This document shows, piece by piece, positions 277 to 13,276 of a DNA stretch of 64,000 nt. Every line of letters begins with the position of its first letter. Within the stretch, counting starts at the first letter, position 1. Under the pieces are notes generated by a model. That model worked only from the letters and a program-made list of their open reading frames with translations. It had not been told where the DNA came from and ran no database searches. The stretch is taken from assembly GCA_938007995.1 (NCBI GenBank), contig CALLLW010000056.1, forward strand, positions 1-64,000, given 5' to 3'. The position numbers and the translations under genes are program-made. The DNA is from an uncultured Granulosicoccaceae bacterium. GTDB lineage: Bacteria; Pseudomonadota; Gammaproteobacteria; Granulosicoccales; Granulosicoccaceae.

Positions 277-501
277 ATGCTGAAAGTGAAAATTACCCCC
301 GTTGGCAACTCCATGGGTATTTTGCTGCCAAAGGAAGCCCTTTCTAAGCTGAAGGTCGCAAAGGGCGACACTCTTTACCTGGTAGAGGGCCCGGTCGGAT
401 ACACAATAACACCATACGAACAGGACTTTGAAGAGCAAATGGATGCCGCCAGCTCTTTAATGAAGCGATACCGAAACACACTGCGCCAACTTGCAAAATG
501 A
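277..501 (+). CDS. AbrB/MazE-family antitoxin
   Basis: This 74-residue protein carries a SpoVT-AbrB swapped-hairpin DNA-binding domain over about residues 1-47 (GNSMGILLPKEALSKL region). A short charged helical tail would bind and neutralise the toxin. The start codon ATG lies about 9 bases after a weak GGA. Its stop overlaps the start of the Doc-type toxin gene by four bases (ATGA), the usual antitoxin-first arrangement with translational coupling. By analogy with the family it should repress its own promoter, and a palindrome lies just upstream. The pairing and the domain together make the assignment firm, although the subfamily is not certain. Confidence 0.85.
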   Translation: MLKVKITPVGNSMGILLPKEALSKLKVAKGDTLYLVEGPVGYTITPYEQDFEEQMDAASSLMKRYRNTLRQLAK

Positions 502-881
502 ATGAACCACGCTGGTTACTGGAACAAACTATTGTTGCGGTTCACTCTGTTGTTTTGGAGGAGCACGGCGGTGCTCCCGGGATTAGAGATGAGGATATGT
601 GGGCCTCAGCACTTAAGCGCCCGATAGATAGCTTTGCCTACGATTTTGATACAACAATTTTTCAGTTGGCTGCGGCCTATAGCTTTGGCTTGGCCAAAAA
701 TCATCCGTTTGTTGATGGAAATAAGCGTATTGCATTTCTTGCAGGCACTCTATTTTTTGAATTGAACGGATACAATTTCATTGCAGAAGAATCAGATGCC
801 GCTTTTGTTTTTGAGAGGCTTGCCGCCGGCAAAATCAAAGAGAACGATCTTGCTATTTGGCTTAAAAAAAATTCATCGTAA
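498..881 (+). CDS. doc: Doc-type Fic-fold toxin of a toxin-antitoxin pair
   Basis: This 127-residue protein has the Fic/Doc core HPFVDGNKRIAF at residues 69-80. The catalytic His is followed by the loop that binds nucleotide phosphates. Short Doc proteins phosphorylate elongation factor Tu and arrest translation, whereas longer Fic proteins AMPylate. The length and the 'GNKRIAF' ending fit Doc. The G-N-K-R loop looks intact, so the toxin is probably active. It is coupled to the AbrB-type antitoxin by an ATGA overlap. Phosphorylation of EF-Tu is family knowledge and not visible in the sequence. Confidence 0.87.
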   Translation: MNEPRWLLEQTIVAVHSVVLEEHGGAPGIRDEDMWASALKRPIDSFAYDFDTTIFQLAAAYSFGLAKNHPFVDGNKRIAFLAGTLFFELNGYNFIAEESDAAFVFERLAAGKIKENDLAIWLKKNSS

Positions 882-1248: not shown

Positions 1249-2025
1249 TTATCGTAGCTTATTCGACAAGTCAGCATAGCCTGCTGTTTCTGCAACGTCT
1301 GCTGGCGTAAGTCCGTTCTTATCTTGTAAATCCTTATCACTGCCAAGTTGTAGTAGTGTGGTGACAATTTCAGTTTCACCGGTAAGTGCTGCTATGTGCA
1401 ATGCACTGGAGCCATTTTCATTGGTGTGGTTGACGTTGATACCCGGCGCTGCCAGTAAATACACAGCAACATCCGTATGACGATTGTCGATGGCTCGCAT
1501 CAATGGAGTCCACTGGTATACATCTGGCAAGTTGATATCTGCACCTGCCTGATGCAAATCAAGTACTGCTGATCTGAAGCCTTTAGCAGCAGCAATCATT
1601 ACTGCAGTCCATCCGTTTGTGCTCTGTTCATCAGGGTCCGGCTGATACGATAAGACCTTTTCAATCATCTCCGGCTGATTGCCAAGCACTGCGTACATTA
1701 ACGCGGTTCCGCCTGTATAACTCTTTGTGGAGAATTTAAGCCCACGCTGCATTAGCTCTTGTAGCAGGCAGTTATCTCCCACCTTAACGGCTGCCATCAG
1801 TGCAGTTTTTCCCTTGTTGTTGGTGAGAGCGACATCAACGCCCGGCAATAGTCGCTTTAGGTCTGCGACTTTGTCCTGATCGATAGCCCGCTTCCATTCG
1901 GTCTCAAGTTGTTCAGTTTGAGATTGTGGACTTGTTGGTGGGATCGGTATGCAGCTTTGTTCCGAGGCATACGAATTTACGGTGACCGATAACAGCAAAC
2001 ACACCAGCGCTGTACGGAGCTTCAC
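1249..2025 (-). CDS. Exported ankyrin-repeat protein
   Basis: A hydrophobic signal peptide (GTG start giving V/MKLRTALVCLLLSVTVNSYA) is followed by about 220 residues made mostly of ankyrin repeats. Typical consensus pieces are NKGKTALMAAV, GWTAVMIAAAKG, WTPLMRAID, GSSALHIAALTG and GLTPADVAETAG, giving about six units. Ankyrin repeats bind other proteins, so this is probably a periplasmic binding or scaffold protein with an unknown partner. The open frame extends to 2064, overlapping the upstream gene, but the GTG at 2025 gives a clean signal peptide. It is probably cotranscribed with the unknown gene immediately upstream. Confidence 0.75.
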   Translation of the reverse strand: MKLRTALVCLLLSVTVNSYASEQSCIPIPPTSPQSQTEQLETEWKRAIDQDKVADLKRLLPGVDVALTNNKGKTALMAAVKVGDNCLLQELMQRGLKFSTKSYTGGTALMYAVLGNQPEMIEKVLSYQPDPDEQSTNGWTAVMIAAAKGFRSAVLDLHQAGADINLPDVYQWTPLMRAIDNRHTDVAVYLLAAPGINVNHTNENGSSALHIAALTGETEIVTTLLQLGSDKDLQDKNGLTPADVAETAGYADLSNKLR

Positions 2026-2047
2026 CACTCTCACAACAGATATTAAA

Positions 2048-2611
2048 TCAGCTGCGCAACGCATAGTGTGAAACTACTTCTGCAAAAGCCGCCTGCGCGT
2101 TGTATTTGCCGGAGAGCCGTATCAACGTATCGCGATTGAATGACTCGTCGCGTAGATCAAGAAACTCTTGACGCCATTCATCATTCAACGGTTGTCGTTG
2201 CTGGTGGATTACCTGAAATTCTTCATCCGATAAAAACCATGTGAGTGTTTGCTGCTTGCTGAGCAGCGTGAGGATCTCGTAGTGAGTTTCCGCACCGCCT
2301 GGTGTAATCAGAACCTCACCTACCAGCGGGTTATCAGGGTTTGTGTACATCTGCAGTCTGAGCAATACCACGGTTGCATTGGCATGCTCTATCAGATCAG
2401 TCTCAATACCTACAGCAAGTGCTGATTCCTGCTTTAACAGGAGCTCTATATCGGCCTGGGATTCACTTCCTCCCAACCTGAAAAAAACTGCAGACTGCCA
2501 ATCTACATCTGATTCAAGCTTAACCGGCAGGCAGGTGACGGTGGATCCGCCTGCCTTCATCATTTTAATGACTGATTGCGGGAAAGTTTTATTATTCAAT
2601 TCATTCGACAC
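2048..2611 (-). CDS. Hypothetical protein, 187 residues
   Basis: A soluble protein with no signal peptide or membrane segment, and not a family I recognise. It is acidic, and its middle part (LLRLQMYTNPDNPLVGEVL) looks like beta-sheet. The coding frame is well formed. It ends just before, or slightly inside, the ankyrin-repeat gene on the same strand, so the two are probably one transcription unit. Function unknown. Confidence 0.6.
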   Translation of the reverse strand: MSNELNNKTFPQSVIKMMKAGGSTVTCLPVKLESDVDWQSAVFFRLGGSESQADIELLLKQESALAVGIETDLIEHANATVVLLRLQMYTNPDNPLVGEVLITPGGAETHYEILTLLSKQQTLTWFLSDEEFQVIHQQRQPLNDEWRQEFLDLRDESFNRDTLIRLSGKYNAQAAFAEVVSHYALRS

Positions 2612-2756: not shown

Positions 2757-3890
2757 CTATAGCGAGCGCTGCCTGATGGCTGAATGACCTCTGGAATACC
2801 GATCAGGACTTTGCGACACCTTACCCTCCCGACGCTGTTGGTAGAACCACAGATTGTGATGCTGCTCAGCCCACTCGGCAGAAACATAACCGGTTGCCAT
2901 TCCCTGAAAAGCACCTTCGGTTCCTGCTGTGCCGATATAAATATGTCCGATTGCAACAGCCATCCAGAAGATACCAGCTACCACATGCCAGACGTTTGCA
3001 TCCTGCATCATGCCGCGGGTTATAGATACAGGAATCAAAGCCTGCAGCGATGGGAAGCTTGGCGCTACCATGATCAAACCGGTAATCACTACCGCCATAC
3101 CGAACGTTGCAATAATCCAGAACCAGACTTTCTCGCCAAAGTTCATACGCCCGGCACTCGGGTGTTTATCACCGATCATACCGCCACCGGCCTTGATCCA
3201 GCCCCAGTCTCCCTTTGAAGGAAAGTTGTGCCAGATCCACATTACTATCATCAGCACGATACCCACACTCAGCACCGGCCCCATCACATTATGCAGCTGG
3301 ATAGACAGCTGAGCCCACGCAGCGTAAGCGGCTTTACCGCCTTCCAGATTGCCAAACAGTGGCAACAGTAAGGTACGCCCGAGCAGCATACTCATGCCGG
3401 TAATAGCAAGAATGATAAAGGATATGGCAGTGGTCCAGTGCACCAGCCGCTCAAACCACGACCAGCGTTTTACCAGCACGCCGGATGGACGATGGGTTAA
3501 CTTGTTGCGGCCATGAATCAGGTGATACAGCAGAATTAACAAGCCCATTGCCGCTATGGCCCAGGGAGCATACTTAACAATCGGGCCACGCCGAAAGTTT
3601 GCCCAGTCAACACCGGCACTCTGGGTTAACACACCGGTCTCAGGCCCCTTGATCGAGCTATAACCAGAGACGCCGCCTTTCACGGCGCGCCAGTAGTCAG
3701 CGCGAGGATTAGAATCAGACTGCTCCTGCGCTACAGCACTGCTTACTCCGACTAACTTGCCATTCAATAAAAACCCGCTGAATGGTGCAACAAGTGCCGC
3801 GAGCATAATAAATGCAAACGTCCAGACGGCGATTCTTTTGCGCCGTTTAATCCGTGCTGGATGATTTTTAGGTAAGTCTTTTACTTTCAT
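2757..3890 (-). CDS. fdhC: Formate dehydrogenase cytochrome b (gamma) subunit
   Basis: Membrane anchor of the formate dehydrogenase, passing electrons from the iron-sulfur subunit through b hemes to quinone. An N-terminal hydrophobic segment (about residues 19-40) and a second helix near 105-122 precede a four-helix cytochrome b561-type core (about 140-320). Likely heme histidines include those in WFERLVHW, QLHNVMGP and NVWHVVAG. At 377 residues it is much longer than E. coli FdoI (about 211) but fits the extended gamma subunits of many proteobacteria. It is the last gene of the operon and is followed by a terminator. The symbol follows the alpha/beta/gamma naming and is not definitive. Confidence 0.88.
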   Translation of the reverse strand: MKVKDLPKNHPARIKRRKRIAVWTFAFIMLAALVAPFSGFLLNGKLVGVSSAVAQEQSDSNPRADYWRAVKGGVSGYSSIKGPETGVLTQSAGVDWANFRRGPIVKYAPWAIAAMGLLILLYHLIHGRNKLTHRPSGVLVKRWSWFERLVHWTTAISFIILAITGMSMLLGRTLLLPLFGNLEGGKAAYAAWAQLSIQLHNVMGPVLSVGIVLMIVMWIWHNFPSKGDWGWIKAGGGMIGDKHPSAGRMNFGEKVWFWIIATFGMAVVITGLIMVAPSFPSLQALIPVSITRGMMQDANVWHVVAGIFWMAVAIGHIYIGTAGTEGAFQGMATGYVSAEWAEQHHNLWFYQQRREGKVSQSPDRYSRGHSAIRQRSL

Positions 3891-3940: not shown

Positions 3941-4162
3941 TTACTGACGTCCCTGAATCTGATCAAAGCGGTCTGCCAGACCACCCGCTCTCTCTGCGGC
4001 CGGTACACTCAGCAGTGGATCTGCAGCGCCTTTGTATTCATAAGCTGACGGATCCAGAGCTGCCTGATCGACTTCACCGGAGCTGGTGAAAGAATCACAG
4101 CCAGAGATAACAGTTATCATCGGTATCAATAAAACCAGTCGCGCTGCGTTTTGCATGTTCAA
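3941..4162 (-). CDS. Small lipoprotein within the formate dehydrogenase operon
   Basis: This 73-residue protein has a hydrophobic signal ending in the lipobox VISG-C (Cys22), followed by an acidic linker and an AERAGGLADRFDQIQ helix. It sits between fdhB and the cytochrome b gene on the same strand, 50 bases upstream of the latter. I do not recognise the family. The predicted lipidated N-terminus and operon position suggest a periplasmic accessory or assembly factor for the membrane-bound enzyme. That role is inference. Confidence 0.62.
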   Translation of the reverse strand: MNMQNAARLVLLIPMITVISGCDSFTSSGEVDQAALDPSAYEYKGAADPLLSVPAAERAGGLADRFDQIQGRQ

Positions 4163-4250
4163 ACTCTTTGGTAATTAGATTTCTGCGCCATTTAAGACTC
4201 AACAGCCTGCGAATCAAACCGGCAAGGTAAGACAGGGCTTAAACAACAAC

Positions 4251-4268
4251 GGCGGTCTAAAGACCGCC
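4251..4268. other. Intercistronic hairpin after fdhB
   Basis: GGCGGTCT (4251-4258) and AGACCGCC (4261-4268) are perfect inverted repeats separated by AA, 35 bases after the fdhB stop on the minus strand and before the lipoprotein gene. There is only a weak T-rich tail on that strand (GTTGTTGTTT), so it could be a partial terminator or an mRNA-stabilising stem setting subunit ratios. Confidence 0.55.
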
Positions 4269-4302
4269 GCTATTGATGACTCTACCAGACGCACTGTAAA
4301 GA

Positions 4303-4890
4303 CTAGCCTTTGTACGCTGTGTCCCAGCCCCAGTTATTCGGTCTGCCACCGCGCGTGGTAATACGCTCACGATAGATATCCGAAACCTTATCACCATCAC
4401 CGGCAATCAGAGCTTTGGTTGAACACATTTCAGCGCATAGTGGTAGCTTGCCTTCGGCAATACGATTACGACCGTATTTTTCATACTCCACCTGAGACAG
4501 ATCATCAGCAGGACCGCCGGCGCAGAAGGTACATTTGTCCATCTTGCCACGCGCACCAAAGGCTGACTGCTTCGGATATTGCGGCGCGCCGAAAGGACAG
4601 GCATAAAAGCAATAGCCGCAACCGATACACAGATCTTTATCGTGCAATACGATGCCGTCGTCAGTGGTGTAGAAACAATCGACCGGACATACCGCCTGGC
4701 AAGGCGCATCTGTGCAGTGCATGCAGGCGACCGAGATCGATCGCTCAGCACCGACTTCACCGTCGCCTATTGTTACAACCCGCCGGCGATTGACACCCCA
4801 GGGAACCTCATGTTCGTTCTTACATGCGGTGACGCAGCCGTTACACTCAATACAGCGCTCGGCGTCACAAAGAAATTTCATTCTAGCCAT
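4303..4890 (-). CDS. fdhB: Formate dehydrogenase iron-sulfur (beta) subunit
   Basis: Electron-transfer subunit linking the molybdenum subunit to cytochrome b. Its 195 residues carry four 4Fe-4S motifs: C13-x2-C16-x2-C19-x3-C23, CMHCTDAPCQAVCP, CIGCGYCFYACPFG and a fourth built from CTFC plus CAEMC near residue 150. It has no C-terminal transmembrane helix, unlike E. coli FdoH/FdnH, so it must be held by contacts with the cytochrome. It begins 12 bases after fdhA on the same strand. The cysteine pattern is complete. Confidence 0.93.
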   Translation of the reverse strand: MARMKFLCDAERCIECNGCVTACKNEHEVPWGVNRRRVVTIGDGEVGAERSISVACMHCTDAPCQAVCPVDCFYTTDDGIVLHDKDLCIGCGYCFYACPFGAPQYPKQSAFGARGKMDKCTFCAGGPADDLSQVEYEKYGRNRIAEGKLPLCAEMCSTKALIAGDGDKVSDIYRERITTRGGRPNNWGWDTAYKG

Positions 4891-7837: not shown

Positions 7838-8035
7838 TCAGAACCGGGCACGATCATAGTAATTGCGAATGTAGTCGTTCTCTTTGTAGCCTTTGCTGTT
7901 TTTGTCGAGTGTTTCAACAGGCTGCTTTAGATCAGAAGCGACTGTGGTGGCTGGCGCTACGGCTGCAGCACCGGTGGCGACGACCGCGCCTTTTAAAAAA
8001 CTCCGCCGCTCGGATTTGATGAATTTCTTACTCAT
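7838..8035 (-). CDS. Small Tat-signal protein of formate dehydrogenase loci
   Basis: A 65-residue protein starting MSKKFIKSERRSFLKGAV, with the twin-arginine motif ERRSFLKG and an alanine-rich hydrophobic stretch, ending in DYIRNYYDRARF. It matches the 'formate dehydrogenase region TAT target' family found just upstream of fdhA in many proteobacteria. Its role is not established. The start at 8035 is supported by GGAGGG about seven bases upstream. A longer open frame to 8098 lacks such a site. Confidence 0.82.
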   Translation of the reverse strand: MSKKFIKSERRSFLKGAVVATGAAAVAPATTVASDLKQPVETLDKNSKGYKENDYIRNYYDRARF

Positions 8036-8142
8036 AAAGACCCTCCAATTTTTATTTATTGCCGGTGTGAGATTTCCTCTCCATTCCCAACCGGACAAAT
8101 TTAGCTACTACTGAACCTGCCCTGTAAAAAGACCCTGTAAAA

Positions 8143-8177: not shown

Positions 8178-9014
8178 CTATAAGTCCATACCAAGATACT
8201 GCTTTTCTATACTGAAAAAACTGTTACCAAGATTACCTACAGCACGATAAAAACCGGCGCCCGATGCTTCATCCAGCGCTGTGAAAAATTGATCTGACCA
8301 CGATCCAATGTGATCGTTAAAGAACTGCCGTTCGGTAGAAAAATCTATTTCATCCGCGAGTATTATTGCCGCCATTGCCTGGCACAGACTGGCTATGTGG
8401 TCTTCAGACTCAGCAACACCCTCTGCTCTTTCGAATCCAAGCCTGCGTAAATCTGCACGCAGCTGGCCCAGTGGTTTCTCCATCAAAAAGCCGGTCAGAT
8501 GCCATGACCCGTAGGGCACCACTTGACCCCGACCCAGGCCTATAAAAAGCTGATGGTATTCATCATCGATTTGTTGAAGGGTGTAATCATGTGCGGCCTT
8601 GCGAAGCACTGTCCATGCAAGATGCATTTGAGACTGAGGTTGCTCGATTTCAGGCAGGCTTCGGAGAACTTGCAGGTGTTCAGCGTTCAACGGGGCAGCC
8701 AGCAGTGCACCAAGAGAGTTATATAGATTGGAACGATCCGCTGCTGCGGCCAGTAGGTCGTGCATTTCTGCAGCACTGATCGCGGAGGGAGTGCCGGGTG
8801 AGGTACTACTGGCTGAGTTGTCTGCAGCAGTATTTCCGGCACGTGCATGCGCTTCAGGAGTGATCTCGATGAACGCCCCTTTTAAAGTAGATTTTTTATT
8901 ACTCACCGCTTCTGCCTGCACCAGCTGCCTCCGCTTTCCCCTAAAAGGAGTTTGCTCCAACTCATAAGCTTTTACCAGCCCTATGATGAAATCGTTAGAT
9001 TCAACGACTTTCAC
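8178..9014 (-). CDS. TorD-family chaperone for formate dehydrogenase maturation
   Basis: The C-terminal 190 residues have the all-helical TorD/DmsD fold signature, including EYHQLFIGLGRG, VVPYGSWHLTGF and SEDHIASLCQAM. Members of this family bind the Tat signal of molybdoenzymes and hold the apoprotein for cofactor insertion. Here the client is almost certainly FdhA, encoded two genes downstream. The first 85 residues are an unusual extension rich in Ala, Ser and Thr. The GTG start at 9014 has only a weak ribosome site, and no better internal start was found. Hence the true N-terminus is uncertain. Confidence 0.82.
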   Translation of the reverse strand: MKVVESNDFIIGLVKAYELEQTPFRGKRRQLVQAEAVSNKKSTLKGAFIEITPEAHARAGNTAADNSASSTSPGTPSAISAAEMHDLLAAAADRSNLYNSLGALLAAPLNAEHLQVLRSLPEIEQPQSQMHLAWTVLRKAAHDYTLQQIDDEYHQLFIGLGRGQVVPYGSWHLTGFLMEKPLGQLRADLRRLGFERAEGVAESEDHIASLCQAMAAIILADEIDFSTERQFFNDHIGSWSDQFFTALDEASGAGFYRAVGNLGNSFFSIEKQYLGMDL

Positions 9015-9063: not shown

Positions 9064-10683
9064 CTATGTCTTGTGTACATCAATGCCTGTGGCATCCTGC
9101 TCGAATATATCTTTGACCCTGCAATCCTCACACATTTTGAGTCGCCGGGTAGCTTTGTCATCTTCAAACATCCAGTGACCGGCGAGTTTTGCCTGCATTC
9201 TGCCGATCATCTGCTGTGTTGCGAACGGCGTGTTACAAACAATACAGTTAAACGGTGTTTCTTCATTCAGCACACGGGGTTTTCGCGCATCTTCAGAGTT
9301 ATAAAGGTATCGCGAGCTAAGGGTTATGGCGGACTCCGGGCAGGCTTTTTCGCACATTCCACACTGCAGGCACTGACTTTCAATGAAGTTGAGTTGCGGC
9401 AAGGTGGCACCATCCTGCAACGCACTTGCGGGACACACAGTGACACAGGCTAAACATAAGGTGCAGGCATTAGTATCAACCAGCACTTGCCCAAATGGAG
9501 AATGGCGACCTAACTGGACAGAATCTAAATCGCATACGCTATGCGCTGCCAGATGATCGACCGAGTTTCTGATCATCTGTCGCTTGTCATTAAACGCCTT
9601 AAATGTCGCTATCGGAATACTTGCATAATCACGGCCAGCCAGTTGATTAATTTCTTCGGCACTGCCTGCATCAATCAGCACAATGCGATTTTCAAGTCCA
9701 AGGCCCTGCAAAATAGCATTGGCGGTAGTGCTTTGAGCCTGCAGGGCTCGAGCCGCACCACTCTCTGACGACGGAGCATCGACAGCAATAGCAGATACGC
9801 CATAGGCCATTGCACCAAACCAGAAATCCATGCCGACACTGGCTACCTCTTCGACTGCCAATGGCAATACTTTTTCCGATAGCGACGCACGTACAGATTC
9901 AAGTCGTGCCGCACCGGACTCGCCATCATGCAGCAACACCGTTGTCACCTGGTTCTGTTTATCTTTCAGCAGTGAAGTTAGCTGGGTAAGCGCATCGACA
10001 GGTGACGGATAGGCATAGCGGACTGCACCACTTGGACAATGAGTCGCACAGCTGCCACAGCCCTGACATAGATACGGCTCAATAGAAATACCATCACCCT
10101 GACTACTGATGGCACCGGTACCACAAACATCAAGGCAGTTAGTGCAGGCTGTGATGCTGCTTCTTGAGTGAGCACATATTGATGCGTTGTATTCAAAATA
10201 CTTTGGCTTCTCAAACTCTCCCTGCAGTTCTGCAAGCTCTGCTATTGCAGCTTCAATTTGTTTTTCATCAGCACCGGTTGCTTTGTATCCAAACGGCAAA
10301 ACCTCCTGCTGCAACATGGGATGCTCGCCTAAATCCAGCACCAGATCAAAACCACCCAGCAGTGAAACGCCTGCCAGCATAGCCAGTGAACCGGGAGAAT
10401 CCGGATCACCAATGGCACAATCAAAAGCACCAAGATAGCCTTTTAAAAGTATCGGATTGGCTTCAATGACAGTAACTCCGTCTTCGGTCGCCTGTTTGTT
10501 TATATCCATCGAACCAGGCACAGGAACCAACACAGTCTGCGCCGGGGTGTCTATTTGATCAGCCACTTCGAGAGCAAGGTCCAGCGGACCGATAACCAGA
10601 CAGTGCCCTCGTGACTGATAACCGATCAGTGATGTTGTCTGCACTGCATTGGAAGGAGTAAATTCAATCGGCGTGCTTGGCAT
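9064..10683 (-). CDS. Polyferredoxin-like 4Fe-4S protein of the fdh locus
   Basis: This 539-residue protein carries two pairs of 4Fe-4S ferredoxin motifs. One pair is near residues 178-215 (CTNCLDVCGTGA and CQGCGSCATHCPSG). The other is near 408-455 (CTLCLACVTVCPAS and CQCGMCEKACPES-like). Between them lies a region without cysteines. Two further CxxC pairs near the C-terminus (CIVC, CEDC) may bind another metal. Such proteins recur with DUF3305/DUF3306 genes next to proteobacterial formate dehydrogenases and may shuttle electrons during maturation. The exact role is unproven. It starts 21 bases after the DUF3306 gene. Confidence 0.83.
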   Translation of the reverse strand: MPSTPIEFTPSNAVQTTSLIGYQSRGHCLVIGPLDLALEVADQIDTPAQTVLVPVPGSMDINKQATEDGVTVIEANPILLKGYLGAFDCAIGDPDSPGSLAMLAGVSLLGGFDLVLDLGEHPMLQQEVLPFGYKATGADEKQIEAAIAELAELQGEFEKPKYFEYNASICAHSRSSITACTNCLDVCGTGAISSQGDGISIEPYLCQGCGSCATHCPSGAVRYAYPSPVDALTQLTSLLKDKQNQVTTVLLHDGESGAARLESVRASLSEKVLPLAVEEVASVGMDFWFGAMAYGVSAIAVDAPSSESGAARALQAQSTTANAILQGLGLENRIVLIDAGSAEEINQLAGRDYASIPIATFKAFNDKRQMIRNSVDHLAAHSVCDLDSVQLGRHSPFGQVLVDTNACTLCLACVTVCPASALQDGATLPQLNFIESQCLQCGMCEKACPESAITLSSRYLYNSEDARKPRVLNEETPFNCIVCNTPFATQQMIGRMQAKLAGHWMFEDDKATRRLKMCEDCRVKDIFEQDATGIDVHKT

Positions 10684-10704: not shown

Positions 10705-11487
10705 CTATGCGTTTTTCGATGATTTTTCAGTGGCCGTAATCGCGACTTCACTATCTGACTGACACTCTGTTTCTGATTGTACGTGCTCATCTCTTACAGA
10801 TAACCCGGGTGTTGCAGATAACCCGGGTGAAGTACCCTCTACTGTTTCAACAGATTCCGGCTTGACGTGCTCTGACTCTACACTTTCTTGAGGTTCGGAC
10901 TTCGCACTCTCATCAAGGGATTGATTATCTTCCGACTGTTGAGCGATTTCCGCTAGGCGTTGTTCTTCTTCAAGTGCTGCAATGCGGGCTTTTTCCTTGC
11001 GCCGCGCATGGTATTTCATATCAGAGGTAACGGTATCGCCAAGTGGTTCGAAGTTGGTGAAATCATCATCGTAGTCATCAAGCCCGTCACGCGCATTAAA
11101 CTTACCGCTGAAAAACAGTTTTTTTAGCGCCTTGTTCCGCAGCTCTTTACTCACCCCTTCGGAAAAGAAGGGACTAAAGTCACTGTTGCCGTCAAGTGTT
11201 TCAATGTCTGGCATTTCAGCATCTGTCAGCACGGGCTGATCTATGGCTTCAGGCGTTACTGCACCATCAGCCGGGCAATCAAGATCTGACGGACTATCTG
11301 CAGACACCGGAGATAACAGTTCAGTATCAGCAGTAGTGTGCACCTCTGCATTTACATCACTCTTACGACGCGACCATCGACTCAGAAAACCGCCTTCACT
11401 TTCTTCGCTGCTATGCTGCTTGTCAGAAGCCTCTACAGCAGCAGTTGTAGATTTGTCAGTTGATTGGTTTTCGTGCGAACGATTCAT
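10705..11487 (-). CDS. DUF3306 protein of the fdh locus
   Basis: A very acidic, low-complexity 260-residue protein. The recognisable core is FLSRWSRRK near residue 34 and FSPFFSEGVSKELRNKALKK with KFNARDGLDDYDDDF around residues 103-145, as in DUF3306 proteins adjoining formate dehydrogenase genes. The C-terminal 100 residues are Ser/Glu-rich and probably disordered. It starts with a strong GGGGGAGAGG-type ribosome site and overlaps the DUF3305 gene by 32 bases. Function unknown; restricted co-occurrence suggests a maturation or regulatory role. Confidence 0.78.
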   Translation of the reverse strand: MNRSHENQSTDKSTTAAVEASDKQHSSEESEGGFLSRWSRRKSDVNAEVHTTADTELLSPVSADSPSDLDCPADGAVTPEAIDQPVLTDAEMPDIETLDGNSDFSPFFSEGVSKELRNKALKKLFFSGKFNARDGLDDYDDDFTNFEPLGDTVTSDMKYHARRKEKARIAALEEEQRLAEIAQQSEDNQSLDESAKSEPQESVESEHVKPESVETVEGTSPGLSATPGLSVRDEHVQSETECQSDSEVAITATEKSSKNA

Positions 11488-12043
11488 CCTCTCCCCCGTG
11501 CCACTGCTTGCGCTTACGTCGCTTTTTTTCTGCTGGCGTATAGTTTTCCAATATAAAACGCTCCAAAGCCAGGTAGATTTTCTGCGGCATTGGTGTGCTC
11601 AGTATGGTGTCATCTGCTTCCTGATAAGCCATCGCTTCATCATAATCTGCTGTGACCAGTATCGGCGCAAACTGTCCGTCTTCATCATCCTGACAAACAA
11701 CAAAAATTTCCTGCTGTTCACCTATCAGCGTATGCCAGTAGCTTTGCCCGCCATCACGATAGAACTCAAGCGTAAACCCGGTCCACAACACATCAAGCTG
11801 ATCCTGTGTTTCGGTGATGACAGTTTTTTCAAGCACTGCGGCACGCCTGCCTGACAGCACCTCTGTCTCAGGCTGTCCACGCACCACTAACTCGCGTAAC
11901 GACCAGACCGGCAGTTTTATTTCTGAAGTTTTACCGGCAGCTAAAATACGGTGAGTGCGAGTAAGCATGACACCAACCTCAAACACGGGTGCACGGCGTC
12001 GCTCAATTAATAATCCGTCTTCCACACCAGCCTCCTCATTCAT
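11456..12043 (-). CDS. DUF3305 protein of the fdh locus
   Basis: This 195-residue soluble protein looks like the DUF3305 family, which nearly always sits beside DUF3306 and formate dehydrogenase genes. Recognisable stretches are VFEVGVMLTRTHR, LPVWSLRELVV, LEFYRDGGQSYWH and CQDDEDGQFAPILVTADYDEA. No catalytic motif is apparent. The ATG at 12043 is preceded by GGGGAA seven bases upstream and is preferred to the open-frame start at 12115. It is the first gene of the leftward fdh operon and divergent from fdhD, so both are likely controlled from the same intergenic region. Confidence 0.78.
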   Translation of the reverse strand: MNEEAGVEDGLLIERRRAPVFEVGVMLTRTHRILAAGKTSEIKLPVWSLRELVVRGQPETEVLSGRRAAVLEKTVITETQDQLDVLWTGFTLEFYRDGGQSYWHTLIGEQQEIFVVCQDDEDGQFAPILVTADYDEAMAYQEADDTILSTPMPQKIYLALERFILENYTPAEKKRRKRKQWHGGEDESFARKPIN

Positions 12044-12418
12044 ATACGCTTCCCCATAAGCATTGACAACACAACTGCAATTCCAATCACACCACCAGAC
12101 AGCCACCACCTGCACACCATCGTGAAGCGGATAGCAGACAAATGCAAACCAGCCACGGCAGAAGTCGATCTAACCAGGCTACAGGCACAGGCCATTGCTG
12201 CCGCCACCGACCGGAAAATCTGCACCAAAGCTGTGATTCACCTCAAGGGCATACAATAATTTTGCGCTGGAAAACCTGCGCAAACCGGCCGTGGGACCGC
12301 GGAAGTCACTGTCAGCCTGTGATAACCTGTCGGCCAGACATACCAGACAACGGCAAGTCAACGCCGGACAACAAGGCACTTTTACGTGGGACAAAACGAC
12401 CAGCTGTACCGGCCAGAG
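12044..12418. promoter_or_regulatory. Divergent promoter region between the fdh operon and fdhD
   Basis: About 340-375 bases separate the DUF3305 and fdhD start codons. Open frames crossing it on both strands resemble nothing known and lack ribosome sites. It should hold the promoters of both units, but I cannot point to a convincing -35/-10 pair. A TTGACA at about 12062 on the plus strand has no good -10. Confidence 0.45.
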
Positions 12419-13276
12419 ATGAGCCAATCGGGCCTGCGCCCGACACACCCGGTGACAGTCATCAACGAGTATGGCGAACAGTCCGAGGCGCATATTCCCG
12501 GCGAATTTCCACTGACCATACGCATTGACGATACCGAGATCGTCACATTGATGACTCTCGGGTCTCAGCCAGAAGCCCTCACGCTGGGTTATGTGCGCAA
12601 TCAGAAACTGATCGAATCAATCGAAGAAATCCTGTCGATCCACGTTGACTGGGATCGTGAACTGGTCAGCGTTGAGACACGCGCCGGCAATGGTATTGAA
12701 GACTGGCAGGAAAAGCTGAACCGCAAAATTGTAACCAGCGGCTGCGGCCAGGGCACTATTTTCAGTTGCACCATCGATAAACTTTACGAAGTTATTCTGC
12801 CCAGGGCTAACATCAAACAATCTGAACTCTACGAAATGATCCGTGAAGTCGGAAAACTGAATGACATCTATAGAAGCGCTGGTGCCGTTCATGGTTGTGC
12901 CTTATGCCACGGCACTCAGTCTCTGATACATGTTGAAGATGTTGGCAGACACAATGCAGCTGATGCGGTCTCCGGTTATATGTGGCTCGAAGGCATGGAT
13001 GGCTCTGACAAGATTTTCTATACCACCGGTCGCCTGACATCAGAGATCGTTATGAAGACTGCTTTTATGGGCATACCTGCACTGGTATCGAGATCTGGTG
13101 TCACACACATGGGTCTTGAGCTTGCGGAACATCTTGGCTTAACCATGATTGCTCGAGCCAAAGGCAAACACTTTCTGGTTTACCATGGCGCTGACAACGT
13201 TGAGCTTGATGCAATCCCACAGAAACGTATTGTGCCGCCACCCACCAAGGGTATGCTGGACTTAAAAACCAGCTAA
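12419..13276 (+). CDS. fdhD: FdhD sulfurtransferase for formate dehydrogenase cofactor
   Basis: FdhD transfers sulfur from a cysteine desulfurase to the Mo-bis-MGD cofactor before insertion into FdhA, without which the enzyme is inactive. The protein has the hallmark VHGCALCHG, whose two cysteines (CxxC) carry the persulfide, plus VTSGCGQGTIFS, EDVGRHNAADAVSGY and SRSGVTHMG. Length is about 285 residues, close to E. coli FdhD (277). The ATG at 12419 gives a natural N-terminus. A GTG at 12386 in the same frame is possible, and neither has a strong ribosome site. It is divergent from the fdh operon it serves. Confidence 0.93.
   Translation: MSQSGLRPTHPVTVINEYGEQSEAHIPGEFPLTIRIDDTEIVTLMTLGSQPEALTLGYVRNQKLIESIEEILSIHVDWDRELVSVETRAGNGIEDWQEKLNRKIVTSGCGQGTIFSCTIDKLYEVILPRANIKQSELYEMIREVGKLNDIYRSAGAVHGCALCHGTQSLIHVEDVGRHNAADAVSGYMWLEGMDGSDKIFYTTGRLTSEIVMKTAFMGIPALVSRSGVTHMGLELAEHLGLTMIARAKGKHFLVYHGADNVELDAIPQKRIVPPPTKGMLDLKTS

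Follow-up and report, generated by a model that had tools for sequence, protein, structure and literature searches.

A conserved, unnamed lipoprotein is encoded between the genes for the Fe-S subunit (fdhB) and the cytochrome b subunit (fdhC) of an FDH3-type formate dehydrogenase, in a 64,000-nucleotide stretch of DNA from an uncultured Granulosicoccaceae bacterium (the window). Gene neighborhoods in several hundred genomes show well that this family, as judged from genomic linkage, is dedicated to FDH3. The best reading, to which we give about an even chance, is that the protein would be an accessory subunit dedicated to FDH3 and tethered to the membrane, strapping soluble FdhAB to FdhC.

The lipoprotein gene and its operon

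The genes concerned are as follows, with the position in the window and the strand.

2757 to 3890, minus strand: fdhC, cytochrome b subunit (TIGR01583), with a long N-terminal extension
3941 to 4156, minus strand: FDH3-associated lipoprotein gene, 71 aa, between fdhB and fdhC
4244 to 4275, minus strand: 14-bp hairpin with a 4-nt loop, then a T-rich stretch, between fdhB and the lipoprotein gene
4303 to 4890, minus strand: fdhB, FDH3 beta Fe-S subunit (NF038355), 195 aa, no transmembrane-like segment
4903 to 7809, minus strand: fdhA, catalytic molybdopterin subunit, with a TAT-like signal and, in its translation, RICHS, which we take to be the Cys active-site motif
7838 to 8038, minus strand: formate dehydrogenase region TAT target (formate_TAT, TIGR02811)
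8178 to 9014, minus strand: NarJ/TorD-type chaperone (PF02613)
9064 to 10683, minus strand: 4Fe-4S protein of the FDH3 operon
10705 to 11487, minus strand: DUF3306 protein of the FDH3 operon
11456 to 12055, minus strand: DUF3305 protein of the FDH3 operon (part scanned; the mechanical ORF extends to 12115)
12407 to 13276, plus strand: FdhD/NarQ, divergent (part scanned; the mechanical ORF begins at 12386)

Read along the minus strand, the order is DUF3305, DUF3306, the 4Fe-4S protein, the NarJ/TorD-type chaperone, formate_TAT, fdhA, fdhB, the lipoprotein gene and fdhC. The initial annotation had correctly placed a lipoprotein between the Fe-S subunit and cytochrome b genes of a formate dehydrogenase operon, and the assignment can now be narrowed to FDH3 by the upstream TIGR02811 gene and by the model scores of FdhB (342.1 bits against NF038355, FDH3_beta, cut-off 240) and FdhC (146.7 bits against TIGR01583, cut-off 115.85). 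FdhA scores 494 bits against the general Fdh-alpha equivalog TIGR01591, below the cut-off of 666, and matches nearly the full length of 9vap_A (residues 30-966, 1504 bits); we therefore regard it as FDH3-like and do not file it under TIGR01591. The window's own genome has one FDH3_beta, and the nearest named FDH3 loci are those of Granulosicoccaceae metagenome-assembled genomes, with FdhB identities of 96% (L162), 89% (L163) and 86% (L168). Elsewhere in the window, a MazE-like ORF below the Pfam cut-off overlaps a Fic/Doc-family ORF (277-881, plus strand), likely forming a toxin-antitoxin pair, and downstream of fdhC (1249-2611, minus strand) are two more genes, one for an ankyrin-repeat protein and one for a 187-aa protein that matches no family.

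The mechanical lipoprotein ORF (3941-4162, minus strand) opens at TTG 4162. An in-frame ATG at 4156, preceded by the purine-rich AAAGAG, is the likely start, and TTG 4162 was dropped in its favor; orthologues align from ATG 4156. The encoded protein has a signal peptide (residues 1-19), a lipobox (ISGC, VISGC in context) with a putative lipidated Cys20, and Asp at the +2 position, followed by an extended YxYKGxxDPL motif (residues 39-48), a C-terminal helix (about 53-68) and the C-terminus RFDQIQGRQ. It thus has the signal peptide, lipobox and Cys, the last kept in every one of the 42 aligned proteins, by which bacterial lipoproteins are recognized in sequence. Substitution patterns in the mature part indicate that the gene is under strong purifying selection, with dN of about 0.07 and dS of 1.96 (saturated) between the window and L002, and dN of 0.044 and dS of 1.18 between the relatives L002 and L003. 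Together with the in-frame ATG and conservation across classes, these features establish the annotated ORF as real; its reported length of 73 residues becomes 71 with the likely start. The family is in no Pfam or NCBIfam model: the window protein and nine relatives gave nothing above a curated cut-off in either collection, and a search of the PDB with the family profile gave no match (best E 0.18).

The intergenic hairpin downstream of fdhB (-23.9 kcal/mol for the stretch, z -5.7) is conserved, with the core GGCGGTC and CCGCC invariant in all 11 sequences compared. One flanking pair is G-C in six of these and C-G in five, and is always paired. Five of 500 shuffles attained the covariation score, but 291 of 500 attained the number of pairs altered on both sides, which is thus no higher than in shuffles. 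A scan for consensus terminators did not list 4244-4275. This element is possibly a leaky terminator or an mRNA stabilizer that sets FdhAB:FdhC ratios, and it could lower expression of the lipoprotein and fdhC relative to fdhAB.

Distribution, linkage to FDH3 and kinship

A single-sequence search of 57 related genomes, counting that of the window itself, gave 15 matches at E <= 2e-5, with fdhC adjoining in 15 of 15 and fdhB in 14; the remaining locus, L009, begins at a contig end. At loose E-values there were matches in 34 of the 57 genomes, mostly by chance, so only these 15 were kept, plus L018 (E 0.066), because fdhC follows the match. A match in G043 (E 0.0045) was dropped, no fdhB or fdhC having been found beside it. 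In the resulting 16-row alignment, M1, C20, Y41, K42, G43, D46, R63, F64 and Q68 are invariant.

Within the window's family, FDH3_beta is present in 29 of 36 genomes. All 11 genomes with FDH3_beta in the window's genus (g1, 14 genomes) have the lipoprotein at the same place, and in a twelfth carrier, G004, the gene lies beside fdhC where a contig ends; FDH3_beta and the lipoprotein are both missing from G007 (77% complete) and G008 (87% complete). In the sister genus g4, FDH3_beta is found in 13 of 15 genomes and the lipoprotein in none of the 13, with fdhC nearly abutting fdhB; nor was a lipoprotein seen in G022 (g2). The protein is thus dispensable, and the enzyme itself does not require it.

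For a broader view, we inspected the interval after each fdhB in samples of the class and the phylum. Of the 369 class genomes, 47 have FDH3_beta; of the 398 phylum genomes, 61 have it, in 66 copies, and three of these 66 loci are also in the class sample. The class loci comprise 19 with a Gamma-type lipoprotein, one with a Beta type, 24 with none and three where fdhC was not seen, in one of which (G128) a match lies at the end of another contig. The phylum loci comprise one Gamma type (the window itself), four Alpha, 11 Beta and 50 none. A lipoprotein therefore follows fdhB at 20 of 47 class and 16 of 66 phylum loci, which contradicts the earlier statement that operons of this type rarely have one. 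Among 80 named loci, which are a biased set because they were picked for likeness to an FdhB alignment, 22 have the Gamma type (six with a second copy), 21 the Alpha type, eight the Beta type and 27 none, and fdhC was not seen in two. Species whose loci carry it include Azospirillum melinis, Pelagibius litoralis and Filomicrobium insigne, and loci without the lipoprotein include those of Sulfitobacter dubius and Tritonibacter mobilis. A tblastn search of plasmids with an Azospirillum relative gave no match.

The orthologues read in Gamma- and Alphaproteobacteria lie between fdhB and fdhC, and strong matches are found almost only there, so that the search for orthologues at other fdh loci that had been proposed came out positive. 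A profile of the family (A1) gave 18 matches at E <= 6.3e-5 in the 369 class genomes, all in genomes with FDH3; 17 adjoin FDH3_beta within one contig, and the eighteenth, in G128, is split from it by contig ends. Four weaker A1 matches (0.0019-0.0098) are unlinked to FDH3. A second profile (A4) gave five matches at E <= 1.4e-12 in the 398 phylum genomes, all five adjoining FDH3_beta. Most of its weak matches (4.2e-4 to 0.01) span the signal-peptide part only; two weak full-length ones, just after fdhB, are Beta-type genes (G719, 4.2e-4; G747, 0.0054). On a FastTree phylogeny of 190 distinct FdhC sequences (Gamma or Alpha type 73, Beta type 19, none 98), presence of the lipoprotein requires 13-15 changes, whereas 100 shuffles of the labels never needed fewer than 49-63. 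Since related sequences favor low change counts, this result speaks for inheritance with FdhC and not for function.

The window, Gamma and Alpha proteins form a 42-row alignment in which C20, Y41, G43 and L60 are present in all rows, D46 in 41, R63 in 40 and a Gly at column 39 in 38. Sorting into types relied on pattern; 11 Alpha rows and a single second-copy row were then reassigned by hand. Full-length profile scores between types were not taken as proof of kinship because the signal peptide is shared, and mature parts alone were compared by hhalign, with three mature starts corrected by hand. The Granulosicoccaceae proteins matched other Gamma proteins at 95.3% (6.3e-9; reversed control 0.1%), and the Gamma set matched the Alpha set at 58.7% (1.3e-5; control 1.1%) and the second copies at 42.2% (4.3e-5; control 0.0%). 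Granulosicoccaceae against Alpha directly reached only 0.2%. These comparisons support the Gamma and Alpha types as one family, to which the second tandem copy moderately appears to belong. All Beta comparisons remained at 0-0.2%, giving no support, and the Beta type was rejected as a proven homologue; it retains the position and the lipobox.

Tandem pairs occur at many gammaproteobacterial FDH3 loci, including 11 of the 19 Gamma-type class loci; examples are L188 (offsets 43 and 252 after fdhB), L171, L180 and L183. The second protein has a (D/E)PWV motif, then an R-rich part and LRxR...QxDR, and is probably a diverged duplicate. Loci of the Betaproteobacteria type have a different lipoprotein at the same place, often with CGEKPQ... 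and then W...R...QNEY (L106, L111, L116, L120, L129, L134, L142, L154, L157, L158, L182, L185 and L186). A resemblance of the lipoprotein C-terminus to the N-terminal segment of FdhC at L133, which has no lipoprotein (E 23), was judged to be chance.

Possible roles at the membrane

A conserved family beside FDH3 genes in many proteobacteria is probably an overlooked helper or subunit. E. coli Fdh-N (FdnGHI) offers a comparison: its FdnH has a C-terminal membrane helix, and the enzyme is not known to have a lipoprotein. The window's FdhC matches FdnI (PDB 1KQF, 1kqf_C, E 8.6e-20); its FdhB, at 195 aa, is unlike FdnH in having no transmembrane-like segment, with no 19-residue hydrophobic window above 1.03, against six above 1.6 in FdhC. 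A review on CO2 fixation (PMC13397495) presents the solved FDH3-type FdhAB of Shewanella oneidensis (9VAP) as a dimer, of FdhAB only. Taken together, a membrane-less FdhB and a dimeric FdhAB suggest that an extra anchor would be useful.

We suggest that the protein would be exported by Sec, cleaved and acylated at Cys20, leaving a 52-residue mature peptide on the periplasmic face of what is most likely the inner membrane. This placement would rest on Asp at +2 here and, in most other relatives, on an acidic residue at +3. Asp at +2 occurs in nine of 14 Granulosicoccaceae, with Tyr in 30 of 37 other Gamma and Arg in 11 of 25 Alpha proteins; the +3 residue is acidic (Glu or Asp) in 32 of these 37 Gamma, 19 of the 25 Alpha and 17 of 19 Beta proteins. 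Asp at +2 is the inner-membrane signal of E. coli and is less common elsewhere, as far as the available parts of the literature go, and this Lol rule was accordingly given weak weight; because the +2 residue varies, inner-membrane retention is uncertain. The mature peptide may consist of a lipid tether, then the extended YKGxxDPL segment, then a short C-terminal helix in which one Leu is invariant and one Arg nearly so. A structure predicted for the lipoprotein alone (pTM 0.34) shows two helices, the N-terminal signal helix (2-18) and one at 53-68 (pLDDT near 90), joined by an extended stretch, a small shape that suits a peripheral strap better than an enzyme. The peptide would most likely bind at the junction of FdhAB and FdhC and could strap the FdhAB arm, which otherwise has no anchor, to the cytochrome b subunit. 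In a linked prediction of FdhB, lipoprotein and FdhC (L162), FdhB was unfolded (pLDDT about 30), so that it carries no docking information. Against the strap stand the FDH3 loci that have no lipoprotein, 24 in the class and 50 in the phylum sample, and its absence from all 13 g4 genomes.

The same linkage would also fit a periplasmic, membrane-tethered assembly factor that aids FdhAB docking or FdhC maturation and is absent from the finished enzyme, a possibility that we take seriously and consider less probable. Its small size and dispensability in some clades are in keeping with such a factor, as is the presence in the operon of other likely maturation genes (the TorD-type chaperone, formate_TAT and the divergent FdhD). 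Those genes, however, lie upstream of fdhA or are divergent, whereas the lipoprotein gene sits between two structural genes and on the fdhC side of the conserved hairpin; both are weak arguments. The initial annotation, which proposed a new accessory subunit or assembly factor, thus named the best kind of explanation, given the orthologues at FDH3 loci; the protein is not essential, being absent in g4. It is improbable that the operon serves for co-expression only, for instance of an outer-membrane lipoprotein with a formate-related role off the enzyme. A +2 residue that is not uniformly Asp and the many operons without the gene would agree with such a passenger, but a passenger would be expected elsewhere too, and the matches outside FDH3 loci are weak and mostly of the signal peptide; the presence of the lipoprotein also tracks the FdhC tree. 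That the ORF is spurious, as its shortness and mechanical TTG start might suggest, is refuted by its conservation across classes, the in-frame ATG and purifying selection.

The lipoprotein appears in no FDH3 description that we found. Putative lipoproteins have been noted in TorD-fdh operons, as DUF1439/PRK10598, in the available part of Bay et al. (2015; PMC4464133), and the present gene is likewise in an fdh operon with a TorD-type chaperone; it matches no Pfam family at E <= 10 and hence not DUF1439 (YceB lipoprotein). The part of PMC2824531 available has no mention of lipoproteins in such operons. Across the literature on formate dehydrogenase lipoproteins and operons and on FDH3-type structures, only that general TorD-fdh mention was found in the texts available; subscription journals were thinly covered, and earlier notice is possible.

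Returning to the strap, we tentatively propose, at somewhat less than even odds, that undescribed lipid-anchored strap subunits make many FDH3 enzymes four-part (FdhABC plus lipoprotein), inherited with FdhC in Alpha- and Gammaproteobacteria and possibly Betaproteobacteria, with tandem duplicates in many Gammaproteobacteria and loss in some lineages, among them the sister genus of the window's organism. FDH3 is widespread, and an FDH3-type FdhAB figures as an oxygen-tolerant tungsten formate dehydrogenase in the CO2-fixation review (PMC13397495). If the lipoprotein holds the native enzyme on the membrane, FdhABC made without it would not be the native complex in many bacteria, and if the strap role is true, a conserved, unnamed small gene would gain a testable role.
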